A model generated the notes under the pieces. It was not told the DNA's origin. It made no database searches and worked only from the letters and a program-made list of their open reading frames with translations. A DNA stretch of 64,000 nucleotides, taken from the NCBI GenBank assembly GCA_020444265.1, contig JAHLLH010000002.1, forward strand, positions 547,033 through 611,032. The letters are read 5' to 3'. This document shows, in pieces, positions 9,182 through 64,000 of this stretch (within the stretch, counting starts at the first letter, position 1; every line of letters starts with the position of its first letter). The translations under genes were made by a program, and so were the position numbers. This stretch comes from a bacterium. Its GTDB lineage: Bacteria; Electryoneota; Electryoneia; Electryoneales; Electryoneaceae.

Positions 9182-9194
9182 GCGAGGTGCGACC

Positions 9195-45762: not shown

Positions 45763-46583
45763 GCGAACCTCCCGGTGAAAATTTCCACCACGGAGACAAC
45801 AATCAGCAGCAGCATCACGCAGGAAAGCGCCAGCGAAGCACCCGCTAGCCTGCGGTTGCCGAGCCAGCGGAAACGATCTGCCGCAGCCAGCAGCGAGATC
45901 AAGAACCAGAGGGTGAGCATCGGGTGCAGATGTGAGACCATCGCCGCATCACGTTCAGGGTTGAGGTAGAGGTTGCTCATCGCGGAGATGACACTGATGG
46001 TAATCAGCAGCCAGCCATAGCCGAGGGTCGTGCCGCGCAGACGGTCCAAATCGTTCAACGAGGGAAGGTTCTGGTACCATTTTCCAAAAGATCGTCCCTT
46101 GATCTGACGATGCAGGATCAAATGGGCGGTGCCGAAGACACCGCTACCCAGCAGCAGTGCAACACCGGCGACCGAGAGGGTGATGTGGAAGCCAGAGCGA
46201 AAGCCAAACAGCGATGCCGGAACATCCGCACCCGGCTGGAGGCCGAGGCAGGTGCCGAGGACCATCATCACAGTAAGGACTGTGAGCGGAAAAATCGAGA
46301 AAAACCTCTGACGCACCTTCCTTTGCAACAGCGAGTGCATCGACCAGATCTGGACGCCGAGAAAGACCAGTACCTGGCCCGGGGTCAGCACCGGCGCCTG
46401 GTTCTGGATCGCTGCCATCACCACCAGCCAATGGATCATAATGAGCGACAGGACGGTTCCGATCCGGACGAGGACCTCTTCAATCTTCCGGTCGGGCCGT
46501 GCGATCAGCATCAGCCACGCCGCCAGCAGGCCACTGGAGAAGGCGACAAGGATCAGGGGAAGGGTGACATAGAGAGTGTTCAT
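45759..46583 (-). CDS. hemX: HemX/CcsA-like membrane protein of the haem operon
   Basis: A 274-residue protein with about eight hydrophobic segments and no soluble domain. Size, topology and position immediately upstream of hemA match HemX, a member of the CcsA/CcmF-related cytochrome c assembly family found in Bacillus-type hem operons, where it influences HemA level. It contains several His residues in or near membrane segments (RSGFHITLSVAGVALLLGSG; AMVSHLHPMLTLWFLISLL) that could contact haem. It overlaps the neighbouring genes by four bases on both sides. Assignment rests on context as much as on sequence; CcsA-type haem exporter is the alternative. Confidence 0.72.
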   Translation of the reverse strand: MNTLYVTLPLILVAFSSGLLAAWLMLIARPDRKIEEVLVRIGTVLSLIMIHWLVVMAAIQNQAPVLTPGQVLVFLGVQIWSMHSLLQRKVRQRFFSIFPLTVLTVMMVLGTCLGLQPGADVPASLFGFRSGFHITLSVAGVALLLGSGVFGTAHLILHRQIKGRSFGKWYQNLPSLNDLDRLRGTTLGYGWLLITISVISAMSNLYLNPERDAAMVSHLHPMLTLWFLISLLAAADRFRWLGNRRLAGASLALSCVMLLLIVVSVVEIFTGRFA

Positions 46584-47998
46584 ACCGCCTCCCCGATCTT
46601 GAGGATGGATTGTGCGATGCGTTTGGCATCTTTCGCGCAGCCGTTGACCGACACTCCACGGTAGGAGGCGCCGGTGAAGTAGAGGCCAGGCAGCTCCTGT
46701 TCGAGGGATTCGCTCTTGGCGACTCGTTCCTGATGACCAAGGGTGTACTGGGCGATACCGCGCGCGTGACGAAAGGCCTTTCTGTAGGAAGGTTCGCCGC
46801 GTACGTCCATCACACGGCGATGAGCTTCGTCGGCGGTTGCATGCAACTGCTTCTCATCCAGCTCGCTGATGCCCGCGTCATGGGCACCGCCGAGGATCGT
46901 GCGTAGCAGACGATGGTTCTCCGGGGCTTGCCCGGGGAAGATGGCATCGGACCAGAGGGAACCCAGTGCGCGAACCCCTTCGCTACGCGGGATCAGGACA
47001 CCGAACCCGTTGAGCGGGTGGCCGAGGTCGCGCTGATGGTACCCATGGCAGACCACGTCGACCGGCGCGTGCCAGATGTCGCCGATTGCCCCGGATACTT
47101 CGCGGTCGAGATCGAAAATAATCTCCGCGGTCGCCCAGGAAGGGGCGGCGAGGATCACCGCATCGCCGGTCGTCTGCCAGCCATCCCCACGAACCAGAAA
47201 GCTGCCGTCTGGGTTTGTCTCAACTCGCTGGACAAGACGGCCCATATGCAACGACCCCTCAAAGGATGACGCGAGGGTGTCGGTCAAGGTGCCCATGCCA
47301 TTGAGGAAGGTGTGGAGGACGGCATTTGGGCCTGAAGGTCCACCCGCCGTGGTACCCTTTTTCCTCGCTTCACGCTGCTTGGCGATCATCGCTCTGAAGA
47401 GGCCGCCATAGTCACGTTCCATCGCAACCATTTTCGGGAATACCGCTTCCAGGCTGAGGTTGTGCGTATTGCCCGCGAAAATGCCGGAAACCATCGGGTC
47501 GAGCATCAGATTGGCGAAGGTCGATCCGAGGCGTCGTGTGCCGAACGAGTGTACCGACTCTTCCGGGCCATTTCGTTTAGCAGGAACCAACGGCTCCAGC
47601 GCAATGCGCAACTTGGCACCCAGCGGGAGAATGTTGGACTTGAGGAACGCCGGTGGCTTGGTCGGTACCTGGCGCATCTGACCGGAGTGGTAGATGTAGC
47701 GATTAGCGGAGGCCTCATCGGCACGGACCAGCTCACTCGTCAATCCAGCCCGTTCCACCAGCTCAAGAGTGGCGGGCTCGTTATCGAGGAAGCCATTTGG
47801 CCCCCATTCGCAGGTGTAGCCTTCCTCGATACTCGTGCGTGTCGTCCCCCCGGCGGACTCATCAGCTTCGTAAATCTCAACTTCCGGTTCGACCCCCGCT
47901 TCCCTGCCATAGCTACGCAGGAAAAAGGCGGTTGCGAGACCGGCAATCCCCCCGCCGATCACGATCACTCGTGGACGGTCCCCGGTTGGATCATACAT
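46580..47998 (-). CDS. hemY: Protoporphyrinogen oxidase, FAD-dependent HemY/HemG type
   Basis: A 472-residue flavoprotein oxidising protoporphyrinogen IX (or coproporphyrinogen III in the alternative route). The N-terminal dinucleotide-binding motif VIVIGGGIAGLATAFFLRS is followed by EADESAGGTTRTS and the WGPNGFLDNEPATLELVERA block typical of this family; the C-terminus has PGLYFTGASYRGVSVNGCAK. ATG 47998 overlaps the hemH stop by eight bases. This form normally uses oxygen as acceptor. With HemN and HemH beside it and no HemQ seen, the protoporphyrin-dependent route is favoured. Confidence 0.92.
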   Translation of the reverse strand: MYDPTGDRPRVIVIGGGIAGLATAFFLRSYGREAGVEPEVEIYEADESAGGTTRTSIEEGYTCEWGPNGFLDNEPATLELVERAGLTSELVRADEASANRYIYHSGQMRQVPTKPPAFLKSNILPLGAKLRIALEPLVPAKRNGPEESVHSFGTRRLGSTFANLMLDPMVSGIFAGNTHNLSLEAVFPKMVAMERDYGGLFRAMIAKQREARKKGTTAGGPSGPNAVLHTFLNGMGTLTDTLASSFEGSLHMGRLVQRVETNPDGSFLVRGDGWQTTGDAVILAAPSWATAEIIFDLDREVSGAIGDIWHAPVDVVCHGYHQRDLGHPLNGFGVLIPRSEGVRALGSLWSDAIFPGQAPENHRLLRTILGGAHDAGISELDEKQLHATADEAHRRVMDVRGEPSYRKAFRHARGIAQYTLGHQERVAKSESLEQELPGLYFTGASYRGVSVNGCAKDAKRIAQSILKIGEAV

Positions 47999-48935
47999 GG
48001 TCCATCTCCTGAAGGATTTCGGCCATGACGTTCCCGAAACGAGGGTCGTCATTGTAGGCTGGCACACGTACGATGGTTTCTACTCCACGGCTGCGGGCGT
48101 AGGTGGCTGCTTCCGTGTCGAGGTCATGGATGGTTTCGAGGCAATCGGCGACGAAGCTGAGTGGTACGATGACCAGCGGTTCGGTGCTGTCGCAGAGACG
48201 TTTCAATTCATCCTCGATGTAGGGACGTGTCCACTCGACCGGTCCGAGACGCGATTGGAAAGAGACGGTCCAGTCAGTGGTTTCAGGCAAGCCCTGCATG
48301 ATGCGTTTCGCATTTTCACGCACCTGGTCCGGGTAATCCTCACCCGCATCCACATTTCGCTGCGGGATGCCGTGGGCGACAAAGAGGACCCGAGCATGTG
48401 GTCCGGCTTGCTCCAAGGCGTCGTTGACCATCGCTTTTTGCAATTCAATCACCGAGGGATGCAGACCCCACGCGGGCAGGTGGGCGAGGTCGAGGCCGAG
48501 ACGACTCGCCTGACGGACCGCTTCGGCGACCACGGACCCGGTCATTGCTTTGGTCGAATGGGGGAATAAGGGGACCAGCAGGATACGTTTCCGTCCATCA
48601 CGCCGTAGCTTGAAAAGTGCTTCCTGGATGGTAGGGGAGGTGTAGCGGAAGGCGTAGGAGACACGAATCCGCTCGCCATGACCATTCAATGAGCTTTGCA
48701 GCACATCCACCTGTTTCCGTGTCCACTCCGGCAGGGGTGATCCGCCGCCGAGTGCCTCGTAGCGCTTCCGCACTTTCGGCGTCCTGCGCCAGGCGATCAG
48801 CTCACGGACCAGGCTACGTACCGGTGCGGGCATCGGCAGGATGTGCGGGTCGGAAAAAATGGCGCGCAAGTAGGGTTTGATGTCCGCGAGGGTTTCCGGA
48901 CCGCCCATGTTTACCAGCAGAATGTCGCGATCCAT
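47991..48935 (-). CDS. hemH: Ferrochelatase
   Basis: A 314-residue enzyme inserting Fe(II) into protoporphyrin IX (or coproporphyrin III). Signatures: ILLVNMGGPETLADIKPYL, YEALGGGSPLPEWTRKQ, LLVPLFPHSTKAMTGSV, the metal-site His in VLFVAHGIPQRNV, and the Glu-containing VVPLSFVADCLETIHDLDTE. Its start shares the A of the hemN stop (TGATG), so translation is coupled. Length is typical of bacterial enzymes without a C-terminal Fe-S cluster. Confidence 0.94.
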   Translation of the reverse strand: MDRDILLVNMGGPETLADIKPYLRAIFSDPHILPMPAPVRSLVRELIAWRRTPKVRKRYEALGGGSPLPEWTRKQVDVLQSSLNGHGERIRVSYAFRYTSPTIQEALFKLRRDGRKRILLVPLFPHSTKAMTGSVVAEAVRQASRLGLDLAHLPAWGLHPSVIELQKAMVNDALEQAGPHARVLFVAHGIPQRNVDAGEDYPDQVRENAKRIMQGLPETTDWTVSFQSRLGPVEWTRPYIEDELKRLCDSTEPLVIVPLSFVADCLETIHDLDTEAATYARSRGVETIVRVPAYNDDPRFGNVMAEILQEMDHV

Positions 48936-50329
48936 CAGACGGTCCTCGAAAAGGTGACGTTTTGTTGATCGGGCAGGTACTGGTCGAAGGGCATGGCGAG
49001 GTTGCGGACAAACAACTGGCCGAGTGGAGTGATGTCCCAGCCCTCGTCCGCAGGTACAATCAGCCCATCCTCCTCAAAGGCTTCCAACTTCTGCATCGCC
49101 ACATGAAGATCGACTGCTTTGTCGAGGGTTGCTCCCTCGGGCATCCTGATTCGCAGATTGCACATCAGCTCGTTGATCAGCGCTTTGCGCTGGATGTCAT
49201 CCTCGGTCAGTTTGTGGCCTCGAAACGTCGTCCATCCGCCCTGCCCGATCTTTTCCTCGTACTGCTGCGGCAGCGGAAGGTTCTGTGCGAAAAGAGCGTC
49301 GAGCTCGCTGATTGCCGATGCACCAAAACCGACCATTTCGAGCCCACGAATGCTTGTGTAGCCCATGAAATTGCGCCACAGCGTGCCCTCGTTGCGTGCC
49401 ATCGCCAGCTTGTCTTCGGGGACGGCAAAGTGGTCCATGCCGATGGAGACATAGCCGCTGTCGGTGAAATGGTGGAAGGCGGTCAGCAACATCGAGAGGC
49501 GTTGTTTCGGGCCGGGCAGGTCGATTTCCTTAATAGCACGCTGATGCTTGATCTTGGCCGGGAGATGAGCATAGCCGAAAACCGCGAGACGGTCCGGGCG
49601 AAGCTGTGCGATCTGCTCGAGGGTATGCTTCCAGGTGTCGCTGGTTTGAAGAGGCAAGCCGTAGATCAGGTCGACATTGACCCCGGTGAAACCGTGCGAA
49701 TGGCAACGGTCGATGAAGCTCTTCAGCTCGTCATAGCTGAATTCACGTTGGACAGCTTTCTGCACGGCGGGATCGAGGTCCTGCAAGCCGATGGAGATGC
49801 GACGGAAACCGCGATCGGCCAAGGACTTCAAGTGAGCATCGCTGGTCACTCGTGGGTCCACCTCGACGGATCGTTCCGCACCTACCGCACCGGGGATTTC
49901 CTCGAGCACCGTGTCGATCAGACGGCCCAACTCATCGGGCGCATTGTGGGTCGGGGTGCCGCCGCCCAAGTGCAGCCAGCCGTGCTCGACCTGGCCCTTG
50001 AAGATGTTGCCGGCGCGACGGATTTCCTGCGCGATGTAGCCAGCGTGGCCAGCAATTTTCTCACGGTCATTCGAGATGAAGGAGTTGCAGCCGCAGTAGA
50101 GGCAACGCTTCTGGCAATAGGGCAGATGCAGGTAGACCGCGATGGGTCGTCCCTTGTCCGGCAACGCTTCGAGCCCTTCGAGGTACGGGGCGGCGGGGAA
50201 CTCATTCGACCAGACCGGCGCGGTCGGGTAGGAAGTGTAGCGCGGGCCACGCACATCAAACTTCTCGACCAGTTGCACAATCTGCTCGTAGGGAATCTGG
50301 TTCAGCGGAGTGAAGGTTCGGTCGCTCAT
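48935..50329 (-). CDS. hemN: Oxygen-independent coproporphyrinogen III oxidase
   Basis: A 464-residue radical SAM enzyme decarboxylating coproporphyrinogen III to protoporphyrinogen IX without oxygen. The 4Fe-4S motif CxxxCxxC is in YLHLPYCQKRCLYCGCNSF, followed by LHLGGGTPT, VEVDPRVTS and GLQDLDPAVQKAVQREFSYD. The N-terminus (VEKFDVRGPRYTSYPTAPVW) and full length indicate true HemN rather than the shorter HemW chaperone. It overlaps hemE by four bases and hemH by one. Confidence 0.95.
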   Translation of the reverse strand: MSDRTFTPLNQIPYEQIVQLVEKFDVRGPRYTSYPTAPVWSNEFPAAPYLEGLEALPDKGRPIAVYLHLPYCQKRCLYCGCNSFISNDREKIAGHAGYIAQEIRRAGNIFKGQVEHGWLHLGGGTPTHNAPDELGRLIDTVLEEIPGAVGAERSVEVDPRVTSDAHLKSLADRGFRRISIGLQDLDPAVQKAVQREFSYDELKSFIDRCHSHGFTGVNVDLIYGLPLQTSDTWKHTLEQIAQLRPDRLAVFGYAHLPAKIKHQRAIKEIDLPGPKQRLSMLLTAFHHFTDSGYVSIGMDHFAVPEDKLAMARNEGTLWRNFMGYTSIRGLEMVGFGASAISELDALFAQNLPLPQQYEEKIGQGGWTTFRGHKLTEDDIQRKALINELMCNLRIRMPEGATLDKAVDLHVAMQKLEAFEEDGLIVPADEGWDITPLGQLFVRNLAMPFDQYLPDQQNVTFSRTV

Positions 50330-51369
50330 CGCGCGCCTCCACGGATTTCGTCAAGCAATATTTCCACCGCCTCAATCGGGGTCTGCGGCAGGATGCCATG
50401 GCCCAGGTTGAAGATGTGCGGCGCATCGCCCGCCTCGTTCAGTACGCGGCGTGTTTCACGCCGGATGACGGATTCATCGCCAGAGAGCAGAATCGTGGGG
50501 TCGAGGTTGCCCTGGATCACCTTGCCCTCAGGCAGGATGTCGCGTGCCTCATCCAATGGGGTCCGCCAGTCGAGACTGACCACATCGGACCCTGTTTCGC
50601 CGAGGGAGCGAACGAGGTGTCCACTCCCTCGGACGAAGTATGTGCAGGGGATGTCTTCCTCACGCAAGCGGGAGAGGATGCGCTGCAGCGAGGGGAGGAT
50701 CATCTGGCGAAACTCACGGTCCGGCAGGATGCCCGCCCAGGTGTCGAAGAGCTGGACCGCATCCGCACCCGCTTCGACCTGGGCGATCAGGTAGTCGCTG
50801 ACCATGTCGGCGAGACGGTCCAGCAGGCTGCGGAAAGCATCCGGCTCGGCATACTGCATCCGTTTCACATTGGCGAACGGATCCGGTTTGCCGCCCTCGA
50901 TCCAGTAGGTTGCGAGAGTAAAGGGTGCCCCGGCGAAGCCGATCAGGGAGACCGTCTCCGGCAGTTCACGACGCAGGATGGTGACCGTTTCCAATACCTC
51001 GGATAACGCTTCACGCGGCTCAATATCCTTCATCTGCTCGAGGTCGGCGGCGGTGCGAATCGTGTTGGCGATCCTCGGGCCGTGCCCCTTGCCGAACGTC
51101 AGTTCCGCACCCATCGGCTGAAGCGGCACGAGGATGTCGCTGAAAAGGATGGAGGCATCGAAGCCGAATCGACGGATCGGTTGCAGGGTCACTTCGGCGG
51201 CGAGGTCCGGGGTGTGGCAGACCTCTAGGAAGCTGTGGTTGGCACGGATCGCGTTGTATTCGGGCAGGTAGCGCCCTGCTTGACGCATCAGCCAGACCGG
51301 CGGTGTATCCAGATGCTTCTTCTCACGCACGACTTGTTCGTAGGCTCGGCGGTTGGTTGCCTCAGGCAT
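50326..51369 (-). CDS. hemE: Uroporphyrinogen decarboxylase
   Basis: A 347-residue cytosolic enzyme that removes four acetate carboxyls from uroporphyrinogen III to give coproporphyrinogen III. The substrate-binding block PPVWLMRQAGRYLPEYNAIR is at the N-terminus, followed by ASILFSDILVPLQPMG, GFAGAPFTLATYWIEG, and DAVQLFDTWAG, all standard for HemE. ATG 51369 overlaps the hemD stop by eight bases; an in-frame ATG at 51408 lies inside hemD and is less likely. The stop overlaps the hemN start (ATGA). Confidence 0.95.
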   Translation of the reverse strand: MPEATNRRAYEQVVREKKHLDTPPVWLMRQAGRYLPEYNAIRANHSFLEVCHTPDLAAEVTLQPIRRFGFDASILFSDILVPLQPMGAELTFGKGHGPRIANTIRTAADLEQMKDIEPREALSEVLETVTILRRELPETVSLIGFAGAPFTLATYWIEGGKPDPFANVKRMQYAEPDAFRSLLDRLADMVSDYLIAQVEAGADAVQLFDTWAGILPDREFRQMILPSLQRILSRLREEDIPCTYFVRGSGHLVRSLGETGSDVVSLDWRTPLDEARDILPEGKVIQGNLDPTILLSGDESVIRRETRRVLNEAGDAPHIFNLGHGILPQTPIEAVEILLDEIRGGAR

Positions 51370-52123
51370 GGTTGCTCTCACTCTCGTTTGAAGGAAGGGA
51401 TGTCGCATCGCTTCCCAGTACAGTCGTCACGGCATGCATCATGCCGATGGTGTCAGGGGTTTCGGCGGTGGTGATGTTGGTCGCACCCGCCTGCTTCAGC
51501 GCCTTCTCAGTGGTTGAACCGATGGCGATGCAGGGTCGCTCGAATGGCTGTTCAATGGAATGGGCCCAGGTATTCACCGCGCTCGGTGCGGCGAAGAGGA
51601 TCGCATCAGGGGTCGGTAGAAGGGCTAGTTCGTGACGGATTAATTCTGCCGACAGCGGTTGTGTCTGGTAGAGTGGCCAACGAATTACCTCTGCTCCCGC
51701 TTCGGTCAAGACCTTGCTCAGCTCGCCGATGGTCTTCTCTGCGCAGGGCCAGAGGACGATTCCAGGTGCAGGGTCCACCTGCAGCAGTTCGGCAGCCAGT
51801 TCCGCTCCGGTTCGTCCCTTGGCAACCGTTACCGGAAAGCTCAGCAGGCCACGTGCTGCATCAATTGTCACCTTGCCAAGCGCAGCGATTCGAATGTCCG
51901 TTGGGAGGGTGGCCTGCCATTTCTTTTCGCACTCGTGGAAGCGACGGACGCCGTTGACACTGGTCAGCACCACCCAACGGACCTTATTCAACTCGGGGAC
52001 GGTGGTCTTCAGCGGGAGGATGCGTGTTAACGGCAGAGAAATTACCTCGATCCCCACTGAAACCAGCGCTTCGGCGAGAGGCTCGGATCGTTCCGCATCC
52101 CTTGTCACCAGCAGCCGTTTCAT
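51362..52123 (-). CDS. hemD: Uroporphyrinogen-III synthase
   Basis: A 253-residue protein cyclising hydroxymethylbilane to uroporphyrinogen III. The family is poorly conserved in sequence; supporting elements are the opening KRLLVTRDAERSEPLAEAL, WVVLTSVNGVRRFHE, IRIAALGKVTIDAA, the second-domain LFAAPSAVNTWA and IAIGSTTEKALKQAGA, and its place between hemC and hemE. The start overlaps the hemC stop (ATGA). It is probably a monomer of two alpha/beta domains. Confidence 0.9.
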   Translation of the reverse strand: MKRLLVTRDAERSEPLAEALVSVGIEVISLPLTRILPLKTTVPELNKVRWVVLTSVNGVRRFHECEKKWQATLPTDIRIAALGKVTIDAARGLLSFPVTVAKGRTGAELAAELLQVDPAPGIVLWPCAEKTIGELSKVLTEAGAEVIRWPLYQTQPLSAELIRHELALLPTPDAILFAAPSAVNTWAHSIEQPFERPCIAIGSTTEKALKQAGATNITTAETPDTIGMMHAVTTVLGSDATSLPSNESESNHA

Positions 52124-53004
52124 GCCGGCACCTCGATCAGCGCACGTGCGAGGTCAAGCGCCAGGTGCTCGGCCTGGCCTGAAACGTTCTTCCATGTGGG
52201 TTGGCCTTCCCCACCCCAATACCCGCAAATATGCCAGCTCTTCTGATCCTGCCAGGCGTAGGCGCCGAGCGGCAGACTGCAGCCGCCGCCAAAGGTATCC
52301 AGCACCGCTCGCTCAATCTGAGCAGCCTGACCGGAGGGAGCATGGTGGATGGATTCAATCACCGTCTGGATACGGGGATCGTCCGCACGCATCTCGACTG
52401 CGAGAATTCCCTGAGCGGGGCTGGGGATGAACTCAGTTGGGTCGAGGGTGAGTACATGAAAATCGGACAGGTCGAGATTGAGACGCTCGATGCCTGCGGC
52501 GGCGAGGAAGATGGCGTCGTACTGACCGTCCGCCAGTTTCGCGAGACGGGTTGGGACATTGCCGCGCAAGTCTTTCAGGGTGATGTCCGGACGGAGTGCC
52601 TGAAACTGGCTCCCACGTCTCACCGCACTGGTACCGACTATCGCCGCCAGTTTCAGCGGGTAGGGATCAGCGTTGTCGTCCACACTCTCTCTGCGGATAA
52701 TGAGCAGGTCCGATGGGTTGGCGCGTTCGGACAATGCCACAACCGCCAACCCTTTCGGCTGTTCCAGCGCCATGTCCTTGCAGGAATGGACCGCGAGGTC
52801 GATCCGCTCGTCGAGCAGAGCTTCCTCGATCTCTTTGGTGAAAACTCCCTGCACTCCCAGTTCACGAAGAGGACGATCCTGTACACGGTCACCGTGAGTG
52901 GAGATCACCATCTGCTCGACCTCGAGCCCGGCCTCTTCCAGCTTTCCCCCCACCCAAAGCGCCTGCCACTGCGCCAGGTCACTTCCTCTTGCACCGATTC
53001 TCAC
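52120..53004 (-). CDS. hemC: Porphobilinogen deaminase (hydroxymethylbilane synthase)
   Basis: A 294-residue enzyme joining four porphobilinogens into hydroxymethylbilane. The start is GTG 53004, preceded by AGGAGGG, giving the family N-terminus RIGARGSDLAQWQALWVGGK; an in-frame ATG at 53055 has no such support. Other landmarks: DLAVHSCKDMALEQPKGL, GTSAVRRGSQFQALRPDI, LRGNVPTRLAKL, and the dipyrromethane cofactor Cys in TFGGGCSLPLGAYA. It is the first gene of the haem operon; an imperfect inverted repeat (53021-53040) lies in the leader. Confidence 0.95.
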   Translation of the reverse strand: MRIGARGSDLAQWQALWVGGKLEEAGLEVEQMVISTHGDRVQDRPLRELGVQGVFTKEIEEALLDERIDLAVHSCKDMALEQPKGLAVVALSERANPSDLLIIRRESVDDNADPYPLKLAAIVGTSAVRRGSQFQALRPDITLKDLRGNVPTRLAKLADGQYDAIFLAAAGIERLNLDLSDFHVLTLDPTEFIPSPAQGILAVEMRADDPRIQTVIESIHHAPSGQAAQIERAVLDTFGGGCSLPLGAYAWQDQKSWHICGYWGGEGQPTWKNVSGQAEHLALDLARALIEVPA

Positions 53005-53124
53005 ACTACCCTCCTGGTTGCTTGCACTAAAAAGTACAAGGAGGGTGTGGGGCACTTGTCATGGAATTGTTATGTAAATCTTCGACTCCCCTAACAACGG
53101 GGTACTTGGAAACGGTGGATTGCA

Positions 53125-54763: not shown

Positions 54764-54992
54764 CTACACCTCCCTCGAGTCGTGTGCACATCTCAAGAAT
54801 GACAATGTAAGAAATGCTAAGGAAGGGGGGTACATGGTGCCGGGTGCATCAGGCAAAGGAGGATGGTCACATAATTGGAATACATGAGCGACCTCGTTGA
54901 AATCTGGAATCACAATTGCAACATTGCGGAAGATGTGGTTACCGCTGTTCAATTCCAGAACAGTTTCGCACCGAACATAAAGGTTGGTGGTC

Positions 54993-56516
54993 GTGCTAAA
55001 TCAAGGAAAAGACCAGAAAGCAGTTTTCCGAAAAAGTGTTCCAGTAGCGATCGAAGCACTCGATGTTGCTCTCCGTCAACTCTCTACTGGAAACATGGAA
55101 GCTGTCGAAAGCTTGAGGCGAATCGCCAATCAGCTTCAGATAAACAGCAGTAAATTCGGGTATAATGATGTGGCGAAAGCCAGCGCCCAACTTGCCTCCC
55201 TCCCTGACGTAGAGCTTACCAAGCAGGGGCGTGAACTAGTCAAACTACTATATGGACTTCTCGGGGATCATGAGAATCCGTCGACCCATATCCTGATTAT
55301 TGACAGCGATCTGGATTCTGTGCAGAAAATGGAATCTCTCTTGCAGAACAGATTCCATTGCGTCATCACTGTCGCTCATTCAGCTCATGAGGCCATGCAC
55401 TTGCTCGCCGATTTGACCCCTAACCTGATTCTGCTTGGCCTCATCTTGCCTGATCGAGACGGACGCTCTCTGCTGGTCGATCTAAAAAGGATGAAGCGAC
55501 TCGAGGATACGCAGATTGTGATGATCAGCGCCCTTGATGTGCAAGTCGTCCGTTCTGAGTGTTTGTTACTCGGTGCGGATGATCTCCTTGGCAAACCCTG
55601 CAGCGAAGAAAGTTTTCTCCGCTTGATGGGTAATATTATTGAGACGACCAGTCTTGAGGCGATGGAGGAATCCACGAATGAGTCTCTGCCGAACCTGCAA
55701 GTAGGGATTGAATGGCTGGAGAAGAATGCAAAGGTGGGGACTCTCGTTGCGCTCCTCGATGTGGATCACTTCCATGAAGTTTTTGATCATGAGCCCTTTG
55801 AGGAAGCAGAACGAATCCTCAGCGAGGTAGCAGCTCGTATTAATGGCCAGTTGGACGAGGGAACGACCCTGTATGGCGGTGATATCGATGACTTCCTTCT
55901 GATCCTTCCGGAAGGAGAGATCGAACAGGCGAAGAAGACAATCCGTGACTTGCAGCAAGTTGTCAGTTCCATTCCCTTCACAAGTGTGGGAGGGGCCTCC
56001 TACCCATTGACCTTCTCTGCAGGTCTAGTCAAGGTGACCCAACCTGACTCAACCGAACAGGTACTGACTGAAGGACGACATGCCCTGGCGCAGGCAAAAC
56101 GCAAAGGGGATGGAATTCTTCACACCCATGGTGACCCGGATCAACCGCCACGTATCCTGCTGGCCGAAGATGATCCGATGATCGTAAAACTCGTTCAGCA
56201 CAGGTTGCAACGGGCAGGTGTCGAAGTGGTCGCTGTAAACAATGGTCGTGATGCGCTTGAAAAGGGGCTTTCCTTACCCTTCGATCTCATTATTCTTGAT
56301 GTGAAAATGCCAGTTCATGATGGATTTGAGGTGACACGACGACTACGTCTGGAGCCATCACTGAAAGATGTCCCCATCGTTCTCTTCACTTCTCTCGGAT
56401 CTGAGCAGGATCTCATCCGTGGATTTGAGCTGGGAGTAGATGACTACATCACAAAGCCCTTCTCACCGGCTGAGCTACTTGCGCGGCTCCTGCACTTGAT
56501 CAGGAAACGGCCTTGA
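54993..56516 (+). CDS. Multi-domain response regulator with degenerate Hpt, receiver and GGDEF modules plus intact receiver
   Basis: About 507 residues from GTG 54993 (AAAGG nine bases upstream; TTG 54984 is the alternative). Domain order: a helical Hpt-like domain (about 10-92) in which the phospho-His position appears to be Asn46 (RRIANQLQINSSKFGYNDVA); receiver 1 (about 97-220) with IIDSD, ISA and GKP kept but Gly149 in place of the phospho-Asp (LILLGLILPDRDG); a GGDEF-like domain (about 230-365) keeping LLDVDHF but with GGDIDDF at the signature (about 294); and receiver 2 (about 385-505) with all key residues, phospho-Asp436 in LIILDVKMPVHDG, Thr and Lys (ITKPFS). It is coupled to the HEAT, glycosyltransferase and outer-membrane genes, so it probably controls that polysaccharide system. 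Confidence 0.8.
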   Translation: MLNQGKDQKAVFRKSVPVAIEALDVALRQLSTGNMEAVESLRRIANQLQINSSKFGYNDVAKASAQLASLPDVELTKQGRELVKLLYGLLGDHENPSTHILIIDSDLDSVQKMESLLQNRFHCVITVAHSAHEAMHLLADLTPNLILLGLILPDRDGRSLLVDLKRMKRLEDTQIVMISALDVQVVRSECLLLGADDLLGKPCSEESFLRLMGNIIETTSLEAMEESTNESLPNLQVGIEWLEKNAKVGTLVALLDVDHFHEVFDHEPFEEAERILSEVAARINGQLDEGTTLYGGDIDDFLLILPEGEIEQAKKTIRDLQQVVSSIPFTSVGGASYPLTFSAGLVKVTQPDSTEQVLTEGRHALAQAKRKGDGILHTHGDPDQPPRILLAEDDPMIVKLVQHRLQRAGVEVVAVNNGRDALEKGLSLPFDLIILDVKMPVHDGFEVTRRLRLEPSLKDVPIVLFTSLGSEQDLIRGFELGVDDYITKPFSPAELLARLLHLIRKRP

Positions 56517-57673
56517 GTGGGCTGTGGAGCAAACTATCGGGTGCGGTGGCGGGGGTGCGAGATATCCCGGCATTGCATGACATCCTCCTTTGGTTTGAAA
56601 GTCTCTGGCAAAGATTTTTGCAACTTGGATCTGGTGATCAGGCGTTCGCGATCATTATTATTGCGATTCTGGTATTCACCTTTTTAAGTCTGCTCTTTGG
56701 TCTGCGCGCCCTGTTGATCCACTTGAGACGGCAACAGATCAGTCGGCGAACAGCACGGTTAGAGGAAAAGTGGACCCAAACCTTGCTCGATGTGCTTACG
56801 GGGGAGCGCGAGGTGAAGTCGATTTGGCGAATGGTGCAATCCCGCGACCGTCATTACTTCATAGACTTCCTTGCTGCTTACGCCCGCCGTGTGACCGGAC
56901 ATGAACGTGAACTGATCGAGGATGCGGCTCGACCCTGGCTGCGGTTTGTCCGACGACAAATAAAAAGCAGAGATCCCGCAAAACGTGCTCGTGCGTTGCG
57001 TACACTTGCTGATCTGACCCCACATCGAACTGCCCGACTGCTGCTTGAAGCGTTAAACGATCCCTCTGATCTGGTGTCGATGGTCGCAGCTAGGACCCTG
57101 ATTCGGATCGGGGACAGTGCACATCTGCCACTCATCTTGAATCGTCTGAAACGGTATGATATCTGGTCGGAACAATACACTGCATCCATGCTTGCTTCCG
57201 CAGGAATTGGTGCGGCGTTTTTTCTCAGGGTCTACCTGAATCAGGCAAGTACCGGCGAGCGGGAACGAGCCATTGTGTTGCGAGCCCTGGCCATGATCGG
57301 AGATTCACTGGCACTTCCGATCGCGGAAACAGCACTTCGTTCATCTTCGAGTCTATCGACCCAGATAGTTGCCCTCGACATGATTGGTGAGCTTGGTACA
57401 GCTGAGCAGGCCCCCCTGGTTCGTCAACATGTACGATTTGCAGAAGAAAGTGTTCTCGCTCATGCTTTGCTGGCGCTTGGGCAGATCGGCGATGAGAGTG
57501 ATATTCCTCTGCTGGAAGCACACCTTTCGCACCCCTCTACCTGGGTGGCCCTTCGAGCTGCCATTGGGTTGGTAAAGCTTGGCGCTGAAAAGACGCTTCA
57601 CGAGTTTGTAGCATCCGGTTCACCAAACACCGTCTTTGCGCAGCAGGCGCTGGCGGAGGAGGTGTACGGATGA
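56513..57673 (+). CDS. Membrane-anchored HEAT-repeat protein
   Basis: A 386-residue protein starting at TTG 56513, whose codon overlaps the stop of the regulator (TTGA). One strong transmembrane helix lies at about 44-71 (FAIIIIAILVFTFLSLLFGL), followed by a basic, presumably cytosolic, linker. Residues about 135-385 form an array of HEAT/PBS-lyase-type helical repeats (AKRARALRTLADLTPHRTAR, SDLVSMVAARTLIRIGDSAH, STWVALRAAIGLVKLGAE). No catalytic motif is present. Such scaffolds mediate protein contacts; its position between a response regulator and a membrane glycosyltransferase suggests it links the two. The start codon choice is inferred from the overlap and lack of alternatives. Confidence 0.75.
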   Translation: MSGLWSKLSGAVAGVRDIPALHDILLWFESLWQRFLQLGSGDQAFAIIIIAILVFTFLSLLFGLRALLIHLRRQQISRRTARLEEKWTQTLLDVLTGEREVKSIWRMVQSRDRHYFIDFLAAYARRVTGHERELIEDAARPWLRFVRRQIKSRDPAKRARALRTLADLTPHRTARLLLEALNDPSDLVSMVAARTLIRIGDSAHLPLILNRLKRYDIWSEQYTASMLASAGIGAAFFLRVYLNQASTGERERAIVLRALAMIGDSLALPIAETALRSSSSLSTQIVALDMIGELGTAEQAPLVRQHVRFAEESVLAHALLALGQIGDESDIPLLEAHLSHPSTWVALRAAIGLVKLGAEKTLHEFVASGSPNTVFAQQALAEEVYG

Positions 57674-59088
57674 GTGTTGACTTTCATTCGTTTGTCTGGG
57701 CAGTAAACTGGATTGTCCTAACGTATTTCATTGTGTTGAATGGCTTTTACCTGATGCTATCGCTGGCGGCGAATTTCTATGTGAAGAGATATTATCGCCG
57801 TATCAGCGGGATGCATTTTGACGATCTCATCAGCGAAAACGAGGCGCCGCCAATTACCCTGGTCGCTCCGGCCTACAACGAGGAGGCGACGTGTGTTGAG
57901 TCGGTGCGTAGCCTCCTCTCCCTGCACTTTCCCGACTTTGAAGTCATTGTGGTCAATGACGGATCAAAAGATCATACCTCCCAAGTGTTGCGTGAAGCCT
58001 TCGAACTCTACGAAGCGCCCATCGCACCGACGGCGAAGATTCCATGTCAGCCGGTCGAACTCGTCCTGCGGAGCAGAATCCATCCAAACCTGGTTGTTCT
58101 GGAAAAGAAAAATGGTGGCAAGGCAGATGCACTGAATGCCGGGATCAACTACACAGCGACTCCCCTTTTCTGCGCAATGGATTCCGACAGCCTCTTAGAA
58201 CCTGATTCTCTGTCGAGGATGGCACGTGCCTTTCTCGAGGACAGTAAAACCCTCGCAGTCGGCGGGTCGATTCGTGTTGTTAATGATTGCACCATTGACT
58301 CGGGGTGGATCAAAGAAGTACGAATGCCTCGCCGTTTGCTGCCAGCGATCCAGGTAGTGGAGTATCTACGTGCGTTCTTAGTTGGACGCATCGGGTGGCA
58401 TGCGCTTGGTTCAACCTTGATCATTTCCGGTGCGTTTGGAGTATTCCGACGATCTGCAGTGGTCGAAGTCGGTGGGTATGCACATGATACGGTAGGCGAG
58501 GACATGGAACTGGTCGTTCGGTTGCACAAAGCGATGCGTCGGCAGAAACGGCCCTATGCGATCAAGTTTATCCCCGATCCTGTCGCGTGGACCGAAGCTC
58601 CCGATTCCCTAAAGGTGCTTGGGCGGCAACGGGACCGCTGGCAACGCGGTTTGTGGGATGTTCTGTGGCGGCACAAAGGGATGTTGTTGAATCCCCGGTA
58701 CGGGTCCATCGGGATGGTCGCGTATCCATACTACTTTTTCCTCGAAATGCTGGGGCCGGTGGTGGAAGCTCTTGGGTATATCACCTTTGCGATCACTTTG
58801 ATTCTTGGGTGGGGGACAGGGTGGTACGCGTTGGCTTTTCTGACAGTTGCAGTCGTTCTTGGTATTGCGCTCTCATTTCTCGCCCTGGGGATTGAAGAGC
58901 TCTCATTTCGCAAGTATTCCCGTTTGAGCGATCTGTTCAAAATGTTTGGCCTGGTGCTGATCGAAAACTTTGGCTATCGTCAATTGACAACGTGGTGGCG
59001 GATCAAGGGAGTGTACAACGCAATCCGTGGCAAGAAAGGGTGGGGGAAGATGACAAGGCGCGGGTTTGCATCCGGGAGTTCATCATGA
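57670..59088 (+). CDS. Membrane GT2 family processive glycosyltransferase (exopolysaccharide synthase)
   Basis: A 472-residue inner-membrane synthase of the BcsA/PgaC/NfrB-like GT2 type. One N-terminal hydrophobic segment (about 8-38), the catalytic GT-A domain, then about three C-terminal membrane segments (about 355-420). Catalytic motifs are complete: VAPAYNEEATCVESV, VVNDGSKDHT (nucleotide-binding Asp), AMDSDSLLEPDSL (DxD-like), EDMELVVRL (base) and QRDRWQRGLWDV (the QxxRW motif of processive enzymes). No PilZ domain is fused, so control must come through partner proteins. It overlaps the HEAT gene (ATGA) and the outer-membrane gene. Product sugar unknown; poly-N-acetylglucosamine-like is a guess. 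Confidence 0.85.
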   Translation: MSVDFHSFVWAVNWIVLTYFIVLNGFYLMLSLAANFYVKRYYRRISGMHFDDLISENEAPPITLVAPAYNEEATCVESVRSLLSLHFPDFEVIVVNDGSKDHTSQVLREAFELYEAPIAPTAKIPCQPVELVLRSRIHPNLVVLEKKNGGKADALNAGINYTATPLFCAMDSDSLLEPDSLSRMARAFLEDSKTLAVGGSIRVVNDCTIDSGWIKEVRMPRRLLPAIQVVEYLRAFLVGRIGWHALGSTLIISGAFGVFRRSAVVEVGGYAHDTVGEDMELVVRLHKAMRRQKRPYAIKFIPDPVAWTEAPDSLKVLGRQRDRWQRGLWDVLWRHKGMLLNPRYGSIGMVAYPYYFFLEMLGPVVEALGYITFAITLILGWGTGWYALAFLTVAVVLGIALSFLALGIEELSFRKYSRLSDLFKMFGLVLIENFGYRQLTTWWRIKGVYNAIRGKKGWGKMTRRGFASGSSS

Positions 59089-60356
59089 TCTACGCCGTCG
59101 TTCTCAGCGCCCTGACCGCTCTCGCTTCCATCGACTCAGCACAGGCCGCCCCTCCCAATGGCACAGTAGAAGCGGTTGACCACTGGCGGGCTATGCTCGC
59201 TAAGGATTCTACCTCGTACGATGCCTGGTTCGGGTTGGCCCGTTCGCTCGCCTTCACAGGTGATCATGTGGGTGCCGTGGAGGTGGCAACTGAACTGTTG
59301 GCGGGATTTCCCGATGATCCCGATGCCCTGCTGTTGCGAGGGCGAGTGTATGGATGGCTTGGGCAGTATGAGCGTGCGGAAAAGGACTTGCTGAAAGTCT
59401 CCGAACTCACGCCTGACTACGCCGATGCCTGGTCGGCGCTAGCAGACCTCTATCGCTGGTGGCAGAAGGGAGAAAAGGCCGTCGCGGCAGCGAAGCGGAA
59501 CCTTCAGCTATCCAATGGTAATCCCCAAGCGTGGATGAACCTTGCACGAGCTCAAATTGCGGCAAGACGGTTTCCAGAGGCGCGAGAAACCCTGAACGGA
59601 GCTCGGTCAAAGGGTGCCGATCCAGATGTTGTTGCGCGCACGTATGCCCAGATTTCCCGGGTTCAATTGCCTTCCCGCTATGAGGCGACCACACTGGTGG
59701 ATCTCGAAAAACGGGATGGTGTCAATCAGCTTAATCAGGTCATTACGCTGCTTGTAAAACGGCAGTGGAAGCGGGGATCGTTGATCCTGGGCGGTCAGCA
59801 ATACGTCCATGACCCCACCGACAGGTCCGACCTTGTAGGAGAGGGCTACCTTGACCTCTGGCCGGGTTATTATGGGCACTCTCGTCTGGTTTATCCTGTC
59901 GTGGGGGAATCCCCACTTGATCTGGATGCTACGGTAGACTTGACCAGAACTCTGCAGGGACGGTACGAGGTAACCGCAGGGTGGAGACGGATGCTGTTTG
60001 GCACAGCCACGGCAAATATCGGGTTTGTAGGAGGCGGCGTTTATCTCAACAGTTTCTATTTTCGGGCCCAGTTCATGAGTAGTTCAAGTGAAACGACATC
60101 CGGGACAACCCTGATGGGTGCTGTTCGCTGGTACTTCCATACGGTGGATGATTATGTCGATGCCTCGTTATTCAGAACGAGGGATAGCATCCTGTACCCA
60201 GGTTCGTCAGAATCCCTTGAAACTAGCGGTTGGACTACAGTCGTACGAGGCCAGCTCAAAGTTTGGCGCAACCATGGCCTTCAGTTTGGGTTGAGGTACC
60301 AATCCGACTCATCACTCACCAGGGCTGGCACAGCAGGTTATTTCTTCCGCTTCTAA
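59085..60356 (+). CDS. YaiO-like outer-membrane protein with TPR domain and beta-barrel
   Basis: A 423-residue exported protein with a signal peptide (MIYAVVLSALTALASIDSAQ, cleavage near AQA-A). TPR units fill about 30-195 (DAWFGLARSLAFTGDHVGAV, ALLLRGRVYGWLGQYERAEK, AWSALADLYRWWQKGEKAVA). The C-terminal 200 residues are amphipathic beta-strands ending YFFRF, typical of a small outer-membrane barrel of the YaiO type. A periplasmic TPR plus outer-membrane barrel is the plan of exopolysaccharide export proteins such as PgaA, BcsC and NfrA. ATG 59085 overlaps the synthase stop (ATGA). It likely exports the polymer made by the GT2 protein. Confidence 0.8.
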   Translation: MIYAVVLSALTALASIDSAQAAPPNGTVEAVDHWRAMLAKDSTSYDAWFGLARSLAFTGDHVGAVEVATELLAGFPDDPDALLLRGRVYGWLGQYERAEKDLLKVSELTPDYADAWSALADLYRWWQKGEKAVAAAKRNLQLSNGNPQAWMNLARAQIAARRFPEARETLNGARSKGADPDVVARTYAQISRVQLPSRYEATTLVDLEKRDGVNQLNQVITLLVKRQWKRGSLILGGQQYVHDPTDRSDLVGEGYLDLWPGYYGHSRLVYPVVGESPLDLDATVDLTRTLQGRYEVTAGWRRMLFGTATANIGFVGGGVYLNSFYFRAQFMSSSSETTSGTTLMGAVRWYFHTVDDYVDASLFRTRDSILYPGSSESLETSGWTTVVRGQLKVWRNHGLQFGLRYQSDSSLTRAGTAGYFFRF

Positions 60357-60512: not shown

Positions 60513-62237
60513 ATGATTCGATGGCCCCTAGTACGGTCTTTTTTGGCTTCCCGGGGGGGGCGGATTCTTTTTTCTGCCGTCCTGCCGGGCCTCCTCATTT
60601 TCTCCAGTTGTTCCACTTCTGATCGCAACTCATCCCGTCCCCTCGCAATTGCAGGCTCTGCAAGGATTTCGCAATCTCAGTTTATAGATAGGCTTACCGA
60701 CCTTCGCTTCAAACAAGGGTTTCCCGATAATGCAGCGGTTCGTCAGCAGCTGCTCGACCAGATGGTTAACGAGGAGTTGCTGCTCCAGGAAGCGAAAACA
60801 CATGGCTATGACCGTGACGCCCTTGGGCAGCGCGAGCAGGAGCTGATCCGCCAAAAAGCCCTGGTCGATGCCTACACGCAACACATCATCCACCCCAAAG
60901 TAACGGTTGCAGATAGAGAGCTGGAAGAGCTGTTTATCCGCTTTAATACGAAGATTACGGCGCGTCATCTTATTGCGCAAACGTTTGCGGAAGCCACCGA
61001 GCTGCGTCAACGGTTGTTGGACGGGGAATCATACCAGGTTCTGGCGAAGGAGGTCTTCGAAGATCCGGTGCTGAGCAACAATGGTGGGTTGCTACCGCTC
61101 TTTACGGTCGATGATACCGAACCCGCCTTCGAAGAAGTGGCCTACAGTCTGCCAGTGGGGACTGTTTCCGAACCGATCAAGCTGAAGCATGGCTATTCGG
61201 TGATACGTGTCGAATCACGTGTTCGTACCCCGATGATGACACGTACTCAGTTCACCAACAAACGCGCGGAGTTGGAAGCCTTTCTTCAGAGACGGAAGCT
61301 GCGAAGTGCGGCGAACGAACACACGGCATGGGTTCGGGATGAAGTCCTCGCCCTGCAATTCCATCCCGAGGCAAGCCTCCGGTTGTGGCAAGAGCTGCAG
61401 GGCGAAAGCACCCATCAGCCGGACGCAACCCTCTCAGCCTTCACATCCGATGGCAAACCCATCGCGGCAGTGACCCGTGACGGGGAAATCGACATGAAAG
61501 CATGCCGACACCTGCTAGATGGGGCGACGGAGGAAGAGCTGAACTGGATCGATAGTCCGGATCAACTTGAAGAGTTGTTGACCGGGCTGATGGTTCGTCG
61601 CTACATGGTCGAGCAGGCCGAACAAGCTGGATTGGGTGACGGACCGGAGTTCGAAAAGGGTGTTGAGCAGATGTGGCAACGCTACCTGTTGGGACGGATG
61701 CAGGAGACGTTGCACGCCACCCAACCGATTCCGCAGGATTCTTTGACCGCCTTTTACGCCGCGCACACCGATCGATACAACCAGCCCGCATCGATTCTGC
61801 TGTGCGGCATTCGTTTGTCATCCCTGGATGAAGCCAAACGGCTGGAGGTTCAAATGCGTGATGGCTTGAGCTTCGAGCAGGCGGCAAGGGAGTGGTCGAT
61901 AGACCGTGAGAGTGGTCAACGCGGTGGCATGCTGGGTCTGTTTACCCAGCGAGATCTCGGCCCCGAGGTCAGAGCGGTCTGGCCGTTGTCGATTGGAGTG
62001 GTCTACGGTCCGGTCAGGATGCCGGGTGGTGGTGCGGGCTTCTTCCAGGTCGCGGATCGTCGCGAGGAAGTCCACCATGCCTACAACGACATCAAGGACC
62101 GTGTCGAAGCTGATTACCGTGCCATGATGGGCGATCGTCTCGAACAGGATTTCTGCGCAGCACTTCGCAAAGAGAAAGATGTGGTCATCTACCGGGATCG
62201 CTTGCTTAACCGTGATCTGAAGGGGGAGGCGCGATGA
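60513..62237 (+). CDS. Lipoprotein peptidyl-prolyl isomerase with two parvulin domains (SurA/PrsA-like)
   Basis: A 574-residue protein with a lipoprotein signal (GLLIFSSCS, Cys near residue 33). A SurA_N-like helical region (about 50-145; DQMVNEELLLQEAKTHGYDR) is followed by a parvulin-like domain (about 148-240; RHLIAQTFAEATELRQRLLD, NGGLLPLF), a helical segment, and a second parvulin-like domain (about 425-525; ILLCGIRLSSLDEAKRLEVQ, SGQRGGMLGLFTQRDL). It probably works in the periplasm as a folding chaperone for outer-membrane proteins. The stop overlaps the start of the downstream receptor gene (ATGA), so the receptor is a likely client. Whether isomerase activity remains in either domain is unclear. 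Confidence 0.8.
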   Translation: MIRWPLVRSFLASRGGRILFSAVLPGLLIFSSCSTSDRNSSRPLAIAGSARISQSQFIDRLTDLRFKQGFPDNAAVRQQLLDQMVNEELLLQEAKTHGYDRDALGQREQELIRQKALVDAYTQHIIHPKVTVADRELEELFIRFNTKITARHLIAQTFAEATELRQRLLDGESYQVLAKEVFEDPVLSNNGGLLPLFTVDDTEPAFEEVAYSLPVGTVSEPIKLKHGYSVIRVESRVRTPMMTRTQFTNKRAELEAFLQRRKLRSAANEHTAWVRDEVLALQFHPEASLRLWQELQGESTHQPDATLSAFTSDGKPIAAVTRDGEIDMKACRHLLDGATEEELNWIDSPDQLEELLTGLMVRRYMVEQAEQAGLGDGPEFEKGVEQMWQRYLLGRMQETLHATQPIPQDSLTAFYAAHTDRYNQPASILLCGIRLSSLDEAKRLEVQMRDGLSFEQAAREWSIDRESGQRGGMLGLFTQRDLGPEVRAVWPLSIGVVYGPVRMPGGGAGFFQVADRREEVHHAYNDIKDRVEADYRAMMGDRLEQDFCAALRKEKDVVIYRDRLLNRDLKGEAR

Positions 62238-64000
62238 AGAAGAATTGTGTCTGGTGTCTGCTGTTTCTCCTCCCACTGATGATGCTGCCGACCATCACTC
62301 ATGCGCAGACCTTCGGCAAGATTGCTGGCCGTGTCCTCGATTCCGAAAGCGGGGAACCATTACTTGGAGCAGCGGTGGTGGTCGAGGGAACACGTCTCGG
62401 AGCCTCCACCGACCTGGACGGCAACTTCATCATTCTCCGTGTCCCGCCGGGCAGCTACACACTGGAAGCTTCCTTCCTTGGCTATTCGACCACACGTGTG
62501 CAGGAGGTCGAAGTCAACATCGACCTGACAACCCGTCTGGACGTCATCCTCACTCCCCAGGCCCTGGCGGCGGCGGAGGAGGTGGTCGTTGTCGCGGAAC
62601 GTCCATTGGTCAGGCGTGACCAGACCTCGATGGAAAGCCGTGTTGGGTCGAAAGAAATGGATCGTATGCCGGTCCAGAATCTCGCCGATGTGATCGACGT
62701 ACAGCCGGGTGTGGTGCGTGGCGGGGATGGCGGGTTGCACATCCGTGGCGGGCGATCTTCGGAAGTCAGCTACCTGATGAACGGCATCAGCATCACGGAT
62801 GATTATGACAAAAGCCAGGCGATGGATGTGATGAACGAAGCCGTCGCCGAGTTGCAGATCATCAGCGGGGCGTTTAACGCCGAGTATGGCAACGCGATGT
62901 CCGGGGTGATCAATGTGGTTACCAAGGGCGGCTCGAACCAATTTCATGGCAGCGTACAGATGGAGGCGGGCGATTACTACAGCGGTCGTACCGAGCTATT
63001 CCCCCACCTCGATGATGTATCCCCATCCTCCAACAACAACCAGACCTTCACCCTCAGCGGCCCGATCCTGAAGGACAAGCTGACTTTCTTTGCCTCCGGC
63101 CGCCGATCTCAGTCCGAGGGCTGGATGTACGGTGAACGCTGGTACCGTCCGCAGGGACGTGGGACGATCAACGGTGATGGAGAGGTCGTGGCCGCCTATG
63201 GTGACAGTGCCGTGGTGCCGTTGAACGATTGGGAGCATCTGAACGGTCAGGGTGTGTTGCAGTGGACTGTGACCGATCAACTTCTGGTCAAAGCGGACCT
63301 GCTTGCGAACGGTGGGTCGAGCCGTGGCTACAACCACGACAACAAGTATAACCCGGATGGAACCGGCTACACCGATACCTGGGGCAGAACCGGGATACTC
63401 AAACTGACCTGGCTCTTCTCGGAAAACACCTTTGCCGAAGCCTCCTTTGCTGACCGTGAGAACAACTCCTCGTACTCGCTCTATGACAACCCCCACGATG
63501 CACGCTACGCGCACCCCGATTCTGCGATTTATGGCAGCTACAGCTTCGCGCAGGGGGGGACTGATTTGTCTGTCTTTGAAAGGACAACAATCAGCCGGAT
63601 CGGCAAGCTGGACCTGACCAGCCAGGTCAATGACCGTCACCAGGTCAAAACGGGCCTCGAAGTGCAATTGGACCGGGTGGATTATGATGATATCACCCTG
63701 ATTCCAGCGAAGGATGAGAACGGACAGGAGTTGGTGCCCTTCCAAACCAGTATCCCGAAGCCGAGCGAACAGAACCGCAGCAAGTACAGCCGAACGCCCT
63801 ACAAGTTCGCGGCCTACATGCAGGACAAGATTGAGTACAAAAGTGTAGTGATTAATGTCGGCCTGCGTTTCGACCTCTTTGATCCCCAGGGCAAGCTGCC
63901 GGTCGATCCGCAAGACCCGAACATTTACCGTCCGCTGAAGCTCGCCAACCAGTACCACGACAGCAATGGCGACGGAGTGATCGACCTTTCGGAACAGACC
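62234..64000 (+). CDS. TonB-dependent receptor, 5' part (runs off the window)
   Basis: An open frame from ATG 62234 to the last base gives 589 residues without a stop. A signal peptide (MKKNCVWCLLFLLPLMMLPT ... THAQ) is followed by a carboxypeptidase-regulatory-like domain (about 26-110; GRVLDSESGEPLLGAAVVVE), a TonB-box-like AAEEVVVVAERPLV and the plug (about 115-235; GLHIRGGRSSEVSYLMNGIS, FNAEYGNAMSGVINVVTKGG). Barrel strands begin after that. The last visible residues include DSNGDGVIDLSE, a canonical-looking 12-residue calcium loop like those in the first receptor of the window. AGGGGGAGG lies just upstream and the start overlaps the PPIase stop. Confidence 0.9.
   Translation, partial: MKKNCVWCLLFLLPLMMLPTITHAQTFGKIAGRVLDSESGEPLLGAAVVVEGTRLGASTDLDGNFIILRVPPGSYTLEASFLGYSTTRVQEVEVNIDLTTRLDVILTPQALAAAEEVVVVAERPLVRRDQTSMESRVGSKEMDRMPVQNLADVIDVQPGVVRGGDGGLHIRGGRSSEVSYLMNGISITDDYDKSQAMDVMNEAVAELQIISGAFNAEYGNAMSGVINVVTKGGSNQFHGSVQMEAGDYYSGRTELFPHLDDVSPSSNNNQTFTLSGPILKDKLTFFASGRRSQSEGWMYGERWYRPQGRGTINGDGEVVAAYGDSAVVPLNDWEHLNGQGVLQWTVTDQLLVKADLLANGGSSRGYNHDNKYNPDGTGYTDTWGRTGILKLTWLFSENTFAEASFADRENNSSYSLYDNPHDARYAHPDSAIYGSYSFAQGGTDLSVFERTTISRIGKLDLTSQVNDRHQVKTGLEVQLDRVDYDDITLIPAKDENGQELVPFQTSIPKPSEQNRSKYSRTPYKFAAYMQDKIEYKSVVINVGLRFDLFDPQGKLPVDPQDPNIYRPLKLANQYHDSNGDGVIDLSEQT

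Follow-up and report, generated by a model that had tools for sequence, protein, structure and literature searches.

What does a tightly packed four-gene run in a bacterium of the family Electryoneaceae build, and how is its activity controlled? The run lies at positions 54,993-60,356 (plus strand) of the window, by which we mean the whole 64,000-nucleotide stretch of contig JAHLLH010000002.1 (assembly GCA_020444265.1) that was analysed, and it encodes a regulator, a membrane HEAT-repeat protein, a family-2 glycosyltransferase (GT2) and a tetratricopeptide-repeat (TPR) protein with a YaiO-like barrel. Judging from motifs and structural models, the operon very probably encodes a synthase-dependent machine for making and exporting a surface exopolysaccharide (EPS). 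In the whole reading that we favour, with a probability of about 0.6, the synthase of this machine would be controlled by a phosphorylated receiver via a HEAT adaptor; support is strong for the synthesis and export part, and the receiver gating is what we infer. A previous sequence-only reading of this DNA had described four genes linked by 4-base overlaps, and this layout was confirmed, all three junctions being such overlaps (TTGA, ATGA and ATGA). The open reading frames (ORFs) are:

54,993..56,516, plus strand: regulator, 507 amino acids, GTG start (an in-frame TTG at 54,984 is also open)
56,513..57,673, plus strand: HEAT-repeat protein, 386 amino acids, TTG start
57,670..59,088, plus strand: GT2, 472 amino acids, ATG start
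59,085..60,356, plus strand: TPR/YaiO-like barrel protein, 423 amino acids, ATG start

The GT2 protein matched the GT2 families of Pfam (1.2e-24). A motif check found D97, D171xD173, GED at 276-278 and QRDRW at 320-324, so that the catalytic set is complete, as the sequence-only reading had said of its QxxRW set, and these positions are invariant across 49 homologues. In the AlphaFold2 model (predicted local distance difference test, pLDDT, of 92.4), hydrophobic helices at both ends flank the glycosyltransferase domain. The top structural match was PcManGT, an archaeal mannosyltransferase (Z 32.1 over 334 residues), followed by a viral hyaluronan synthase (Z 28.6 over 393 residues), and then by BcsA and chitin synthases. 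Both motifs and fold are those of the inner-membrane processive GT2 of synthase-dependent EPS systems, and the protein is probably a processive-type family-2 polysaccharide synthase of the inner membrane, similar to hyaluronan and cellulose synthases.

The product of the last gene has strong Pfam matches to TPRs and a YaiO match of 25.2 bits (cut-off 23.9). With the YaiO model TIGR04390 it scored 26 bits, under the cut-off of 32; this model was matched by 34 of the 40 barrel proteins of the related set. The periplasmic TPR plus outer-membrane barrel arrangement of synthase-dependent systems is found here, the barrel part weakly in the window (above the Pfam cut-off only), and no other YaiO-like barrel was found in the host genome. 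By family and gene context, the protein is a putative polymer exporter. The YaiO barrel gene is optional, being absent at Gram-positive and archaeal loci. Because the barrel is an add-on of outer-membrane cells, the core consists of receiver, HEAT and GT2; the four-part system described earlier thus stands for the window, where all four genes are present, and has to be reduced to three parts for the set as a whole.

The HEAT protein matched HEAT_2 of Pfam (1.1e-18), as did 62 of the 63 members of its family. Its AlphaFold2 model (pLDDT 95.6) predicts a 56-residue N-terminal helix (residues 40-95) that contains a hydrophobic segment, followed by a HEAT solenoid, and we are confident in reading the modelled protein as a membrane-anchored solenoid. 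Conservation within the family peaks around residues 340-362, and the nearest solved structures are generic HEAT/armadillo proteins. Neither the HEAT nor the GT2 proteins contain a recognised PilZ domain. Furthermore, Pfam and NCBIfam scans of the four operon proteins and of the scanned adjacent genes revealed no PilZ, deacetylase, PgaD or BcsB domain. The scans bear out the earlier claim that the operon lacks PilZ, a deacetylase and a known co-polymerase, and, together with the recurrence of the gene set described below, also the claim that a membrane HEAT protein occupies the place usual for a receptor of cyclic di-GMP (c-di-GMP) or a co-polymerase.

The regulator had been described as of the phosphorelay type. 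Two receivers (Response_reg, 1.2e-43) agree with this description, which had overlooked a GGDEF domain (Pfam, 5.1e-11). Alignment with ten relatives gave the architecture Hpt-REC1-GGDEF-REC2, in which Hpt was assigned from this alignment, without a Pfam match. In the window protein the catalytic His of the Hpt-like domain is replaced by Asn and the phospho-Asp of REC1 by Gly, whereas relatives retain both the His (e.g., RISHSLKGSG) and the Asp; its GGDEF domain is degenerate (YGGDIDDF), lacking both the GG(D/E)EF motif of active diguanylate cyclases and the RxxD I-site. REC2 keeps its Asp (ILDVKMP) and is the sole intact domain of the four. By its motifs, then, the window regulator would work neither as a cyclase nor as an Hpt, yet would be able to serve as a phospho-receiver. 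Since three of four domains lost key residues and REC2 is intact, receiver output appears to be what was retained. Pfam revealed no DNA-binding domain in this protein.

Does the same gene set occur in other genomes? When 99 relatives were searched with the HEAT protein, receiver-HEAT-GT2 turned up in the same family, in the same phylum and in further phyla. A GT2 alignment run against 84,980 species genomes yielded at least 568 relatives, of which the best 80 were used; these include Gemmatimonadota, Neomarinimicrobiota, Balneolaceae, Actinomycetota, Bacillota, Thermus, Acidobacteriota, Bdellovibrio, several Proteobacteria, Chloroflexi, archaea and others. A neighbourhood set of 89 loci was drawn from these 80, plus the window, five relatives and six plasmid loci; its members are partly non-independent (L061 and L062 are near-copies). 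HEAT was found directly upstream of GT2 at 83 of the 89 loci by ORF calling, and at 88 after a six-frame check, the sole HEAT-less locus being L114 (Nitrospira). The two ORFs overlapped in 70 of the 83 (with the longest possible starts, so that overlap lengths are approximate). A receiver was encoded directly upstream of HEAT at 52 of 78 loci and no more than two genes upstream at 65, against a background of 13 receivers among 261 genes (5%) lying more than six genes away from HEAT. The association of HEAT, GT2 and receiver is far beyond chance. Co-occurrence in relatives, on which the sequence-only reading had staked its case beforehand, therefore holds.

A broader sample of 386 genomes was picked by kinship, independently of this gene. 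GT2 (E <= 1e-60) was present in 31 of them, and HEAT lay upstream of it in 27 of the 30 loci examined; in the remaining three the neighbourhood differs, and a YaiO-type gene lies downstream of GT2. The pairing holds down to 34% GT2 identity (Bacteroides and Planococcus plasmids), and at 29-30% identity (Sphingobium, Sulfitobacter) no annotated HEAT gene was found. On a quick GT2 tree the pairing is clustered, requiring 4 changes versus a mean of 9.8 after shuffling. Each of nine genomes searched whole has one GT2 copy at E <= 1e-30.

How could these proteins work together? GT2 would polymerise sugar from a nucleotide-sugar donor and thread the polymer across the inner membrane, as suggested by its fold and motifs, and the TPR/YaiO-like barrel, to judge from its family and co-occurrence, would conduct it through the periplasm and the outer membrane. 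A histidine kinase or phosphorelay would charge the receiver, which in the window is the last REC of the regulator and in many relatives a free-standing REC of ~125 amino acids. The phosphorylated receiver would then bind the membrane-anchored HEAT solenoid, and the solenoid, seated on the synthase, would switch or assemble GT2, the direction of the switch being surmised. An action of the receiver on the synthase via HEAT is proposed because the HEAT-GT2 pair is near-obligatory, receivers are enriched beside HEAT, those adjoining HEAT are frequently of single-domain length (38 of 78 loci), and REC2 alone was kept in the window. Elements of such a relay are annotated at a Mesorhizobium ciceri locus (ATP-binding kinase, two response regulators, YaiO, HEAT, GT2 and Hpt), at a Devosia locus (response regulator, TPR, HEAT, GT2, annotated as two pieces, and Hpt) and in the haloarchaeon Salinirubellus (response regulator, HEAT and GT2).

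Several points weigh against this reading. The YaiO match of the window barrel protein is weak, and the REC-HEAT and HEAT-GT2 contacts are putative. The GT2 profile used to draw the first locus sample had itself been built from HEAT-linked genes. At 12 HEAT-bearing loci there is no nearby receiver, e.g., in Deinococcus (TPR, HEAT and GT2 by annotation) and Legionella adelaidensis (nucleotide-sugar dehydrogenase, epimerase-like, YaiO, HEAT, GT2 and epimerase-like), so receiver input is either not universal or encoded elsewhere. Finally, the regulators of several relatives (L046-L049) have an intact GGDEF domain (RWGGEEF plus the RxxD I-site), and elsewhere the host genome encodes two GGDEF proteins that are intact, together with two PilZ proteins; because of these, c-di-GMP input has to be given some weight. 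The main rival is accordingly the same export machine gated by c-di-GMP, with the GGDEF regulator making or sensing the nucleotide and HEAT or GT2 acting as an unrecognised receptor. It would accord with the intact GG(D/E)EF of some Bacillota regulators adjoining HEAT, and with a survey of synthase-dependent EPS operons for five polymers (cellulose, acetylated cellulose, poly-N-acetylglucosamine, alginate and Pel), according to which control by c-di-GMP binding is typical of such systems (PMC7112194); the main text of the survey does not mention HEAT proteins or response regulators (PMC7112194). However, the window GGDEF is degenerate and without an I-site, many loci have a free-standing receiver alone and no GGDEF in the regulator adjoining HEAT, receiver-HEAT-GT2 occurs also in a haloarchaeon, and PilZ was recognised in neither HEAT nor GT2 proteins. 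We consider c-di-GMP gating unlikely, although it is the best of the alternatives.

A second possibility, to which we give slightly less credit, is that HEAT serves the synthase constitutively, as a scaffold for its assembly or stability, and that the receiver acts elsewhere or via transcription. HEAT is near-obligatory (88 of 89 loci) and the receiver less so, and HEAT solenoids are generic binding scaffolds, as this explanation would have it. It does not account for the strong enrichment of receivers, often immediately beside HEAT; moreover, since single-domain-length receivers are common and the window regulator lacks a DNA-binding domain, a protein target of the receiver is likely. That GT2 makes a short lipid- or protein-linked glycan, the barrel having another purpose, is very improbable: PcManGT does top the structural matches, but QxxRW is invariant, hydrophobic helices lie on both sides of the glycosyltransferase domain, the alignment with hyaluronan and cellulose synthases is near full-length, and a TPR/YaiO exporter is paired with GT2 at many Gram-negative loci.

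Is the receiver-HEAT-GT2 machine a known system under another name? The earlier claim of an exopolysaccharide operon resembling yet distinct from Pga, Bcs and Nfr is sustained by scores, domains and tree. With Pga/Ica it shares a GT2 synthase and a TPR-barrel exporter, and PgaC_IcaA was the best NCBIfam match of the window GT2; however, the score was 144.7 bits versus a PgaC cut-off of 422.3, and the PgaB deacetylase and PgaD that accompany PgaC were not found in the window operon, which has HEAT and a receiver instead. With Bcs it shares the GT2 fold with D, DxD, xED and QxxRW, and BcsA is among the structural neighbours, but the CelA model gave 44.1 bits versus a cut-off of 699.1, and neither PilZ nor BcsB was found, so the BcsA-PilZ-BcsB combination is missing. 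Nfr of E. coli (NfrA/NfrB) likewise joins a GT2 with an outer-membrane partner; NfrB is annotated as c-di-GMP-activated, whereas no extra domain was recognised in the window GT2. In E. coli the GT2 gene yaiP and the YaiO barrel gene also lie near one another, but without a HEAT or receiver gene and near the putative deacetylase gene yaiS. On the quick tree PgaC, YaiP and NfrB are long branches far outside, and their exact placements are unsure owing to branch length.

A precedent for post-translational control comes from Myxococcus xanthus, where the single-domain response regulator EpsW activates EPS synthesis by binding EpsZ (PMC12802240). The feature shared with the system proposed here is control of EPS synthesis by a receiver. 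EpsZ differs in belonging to a Wzx/Wzy pathway with a phosphoglycosyl transferase, and that system has neither a GT2 synthase nor a HEAT adaptor. The Sinorhizobium meliloti APS operon (uxs1-uxe-apsS-apsH1-apsE-apsH2) is a further rhizobial exopolysaccharide operon, with a gene order confirmed from a paper; it is at most a candidate for the same system, in which ApsS/ApsH might correspond to GT2/HEAT. Strong homologues (E < 1e-120) were found in only 5 of 151 Rhizobiaceae genomes. The zetaproteobacterial stalk genes (Sfz2) were set aside as different, encoding an EpsE-like/GT2 protein.

We found no published description of the receiver-HEAT-GT2 set in the open-access literature, subscription literature being outside the scope of the search. 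The claim that no characterised locus is a close match has thus survived there, with S. meliloti APS outside the comparison. We would only tentatively go further and propose a previously undescribed synthase class, present in many bacterial phyla and in some archaea, whose processive GT2 is switched by a phosphorylated receiver via a membrane HEAT adaptor, in place of c-di-GMP control. If this is true, a GT2 family found in 31 of 386 broadly sampled genomes, nearly always tied to HEAT and usually to a receiver, would be: i) a further EPS machine; ii) a second mode of post-translational EPS control; and iii) a testable biofilm or surface-polymer locus for many poorly studied phyla.

Some neighbouring gene arrangements were considered separately. 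The HEAT-less GT2-YaiO loci L165, L166 and L168 were not counted as the same set, their neighbourhood being different. An apparent HEAT-GT2 fusion in L040 proved to be an ORF artefact, with HEAT in another frame; the GT2 of L040 and L068 has a C-terminal tail that is barrel-like by eye and weakly so by profile. A UDP-pentose supply encoded at the Legionella locus was rejected, since the enzymes only resemble TviB/TviC-like and other sugar-nucleotide families, with scores below equivalog cut-offs. HEAT-less sister loci in the family and phylum of the window (L184, L185 and L186) encode GT2, a protein of ~215-325 amino acids that is lipoprotein-like by eye, and a YaiO-type gene, with a ~1000-amino acid ORF in two of the three; they may represent another uncharacterised EPS operon. 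In Gram-positives, a conserved secreted family of ~720 amino acids adjoins HEAT-GT2 (L072, L081, L098, L105, L115, L127 and L067). The members scanned had no Pfam match and no PDB relative was found; by eye alone, glycosidase-like motifs and a common C-terminal SYY...AF motif were noted. A domain with a D(K/Y)TVP motif occurs free-standing (L066), fused to GT2 (L084) and fused to the ~720-amino acid family (L115).

As to the rest of the window, no Rfam elements were found in it. On the plus strand, 156 bases past the operon (60,513-64,000), lies a protein with two PPIC-type rotamase domains (SurA/PrsA-like), whose ORF shares a 4-base overlap with a large ORF, TonB-plug-like by eye, that runs off the window end; this pair possibly provides outer-membrane folding support. 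A run of minus-strand ORFs at ~44,461-53,055 resembles, by translation, haem-biosynthesis genes (hemE-, hemN-, hemC- and hemD-like, and others). At 20,461-22,974 (plus strand) a patatin phospholipase domain carries a C-terminal Omp85-type barrel. An M14 carboxypeptidase with a C-terminal FlgD_ig domain (23,146-25,695, minus strand) and a PorV-like protein (9,153-10,220) hint at a type IX-like secretion system.

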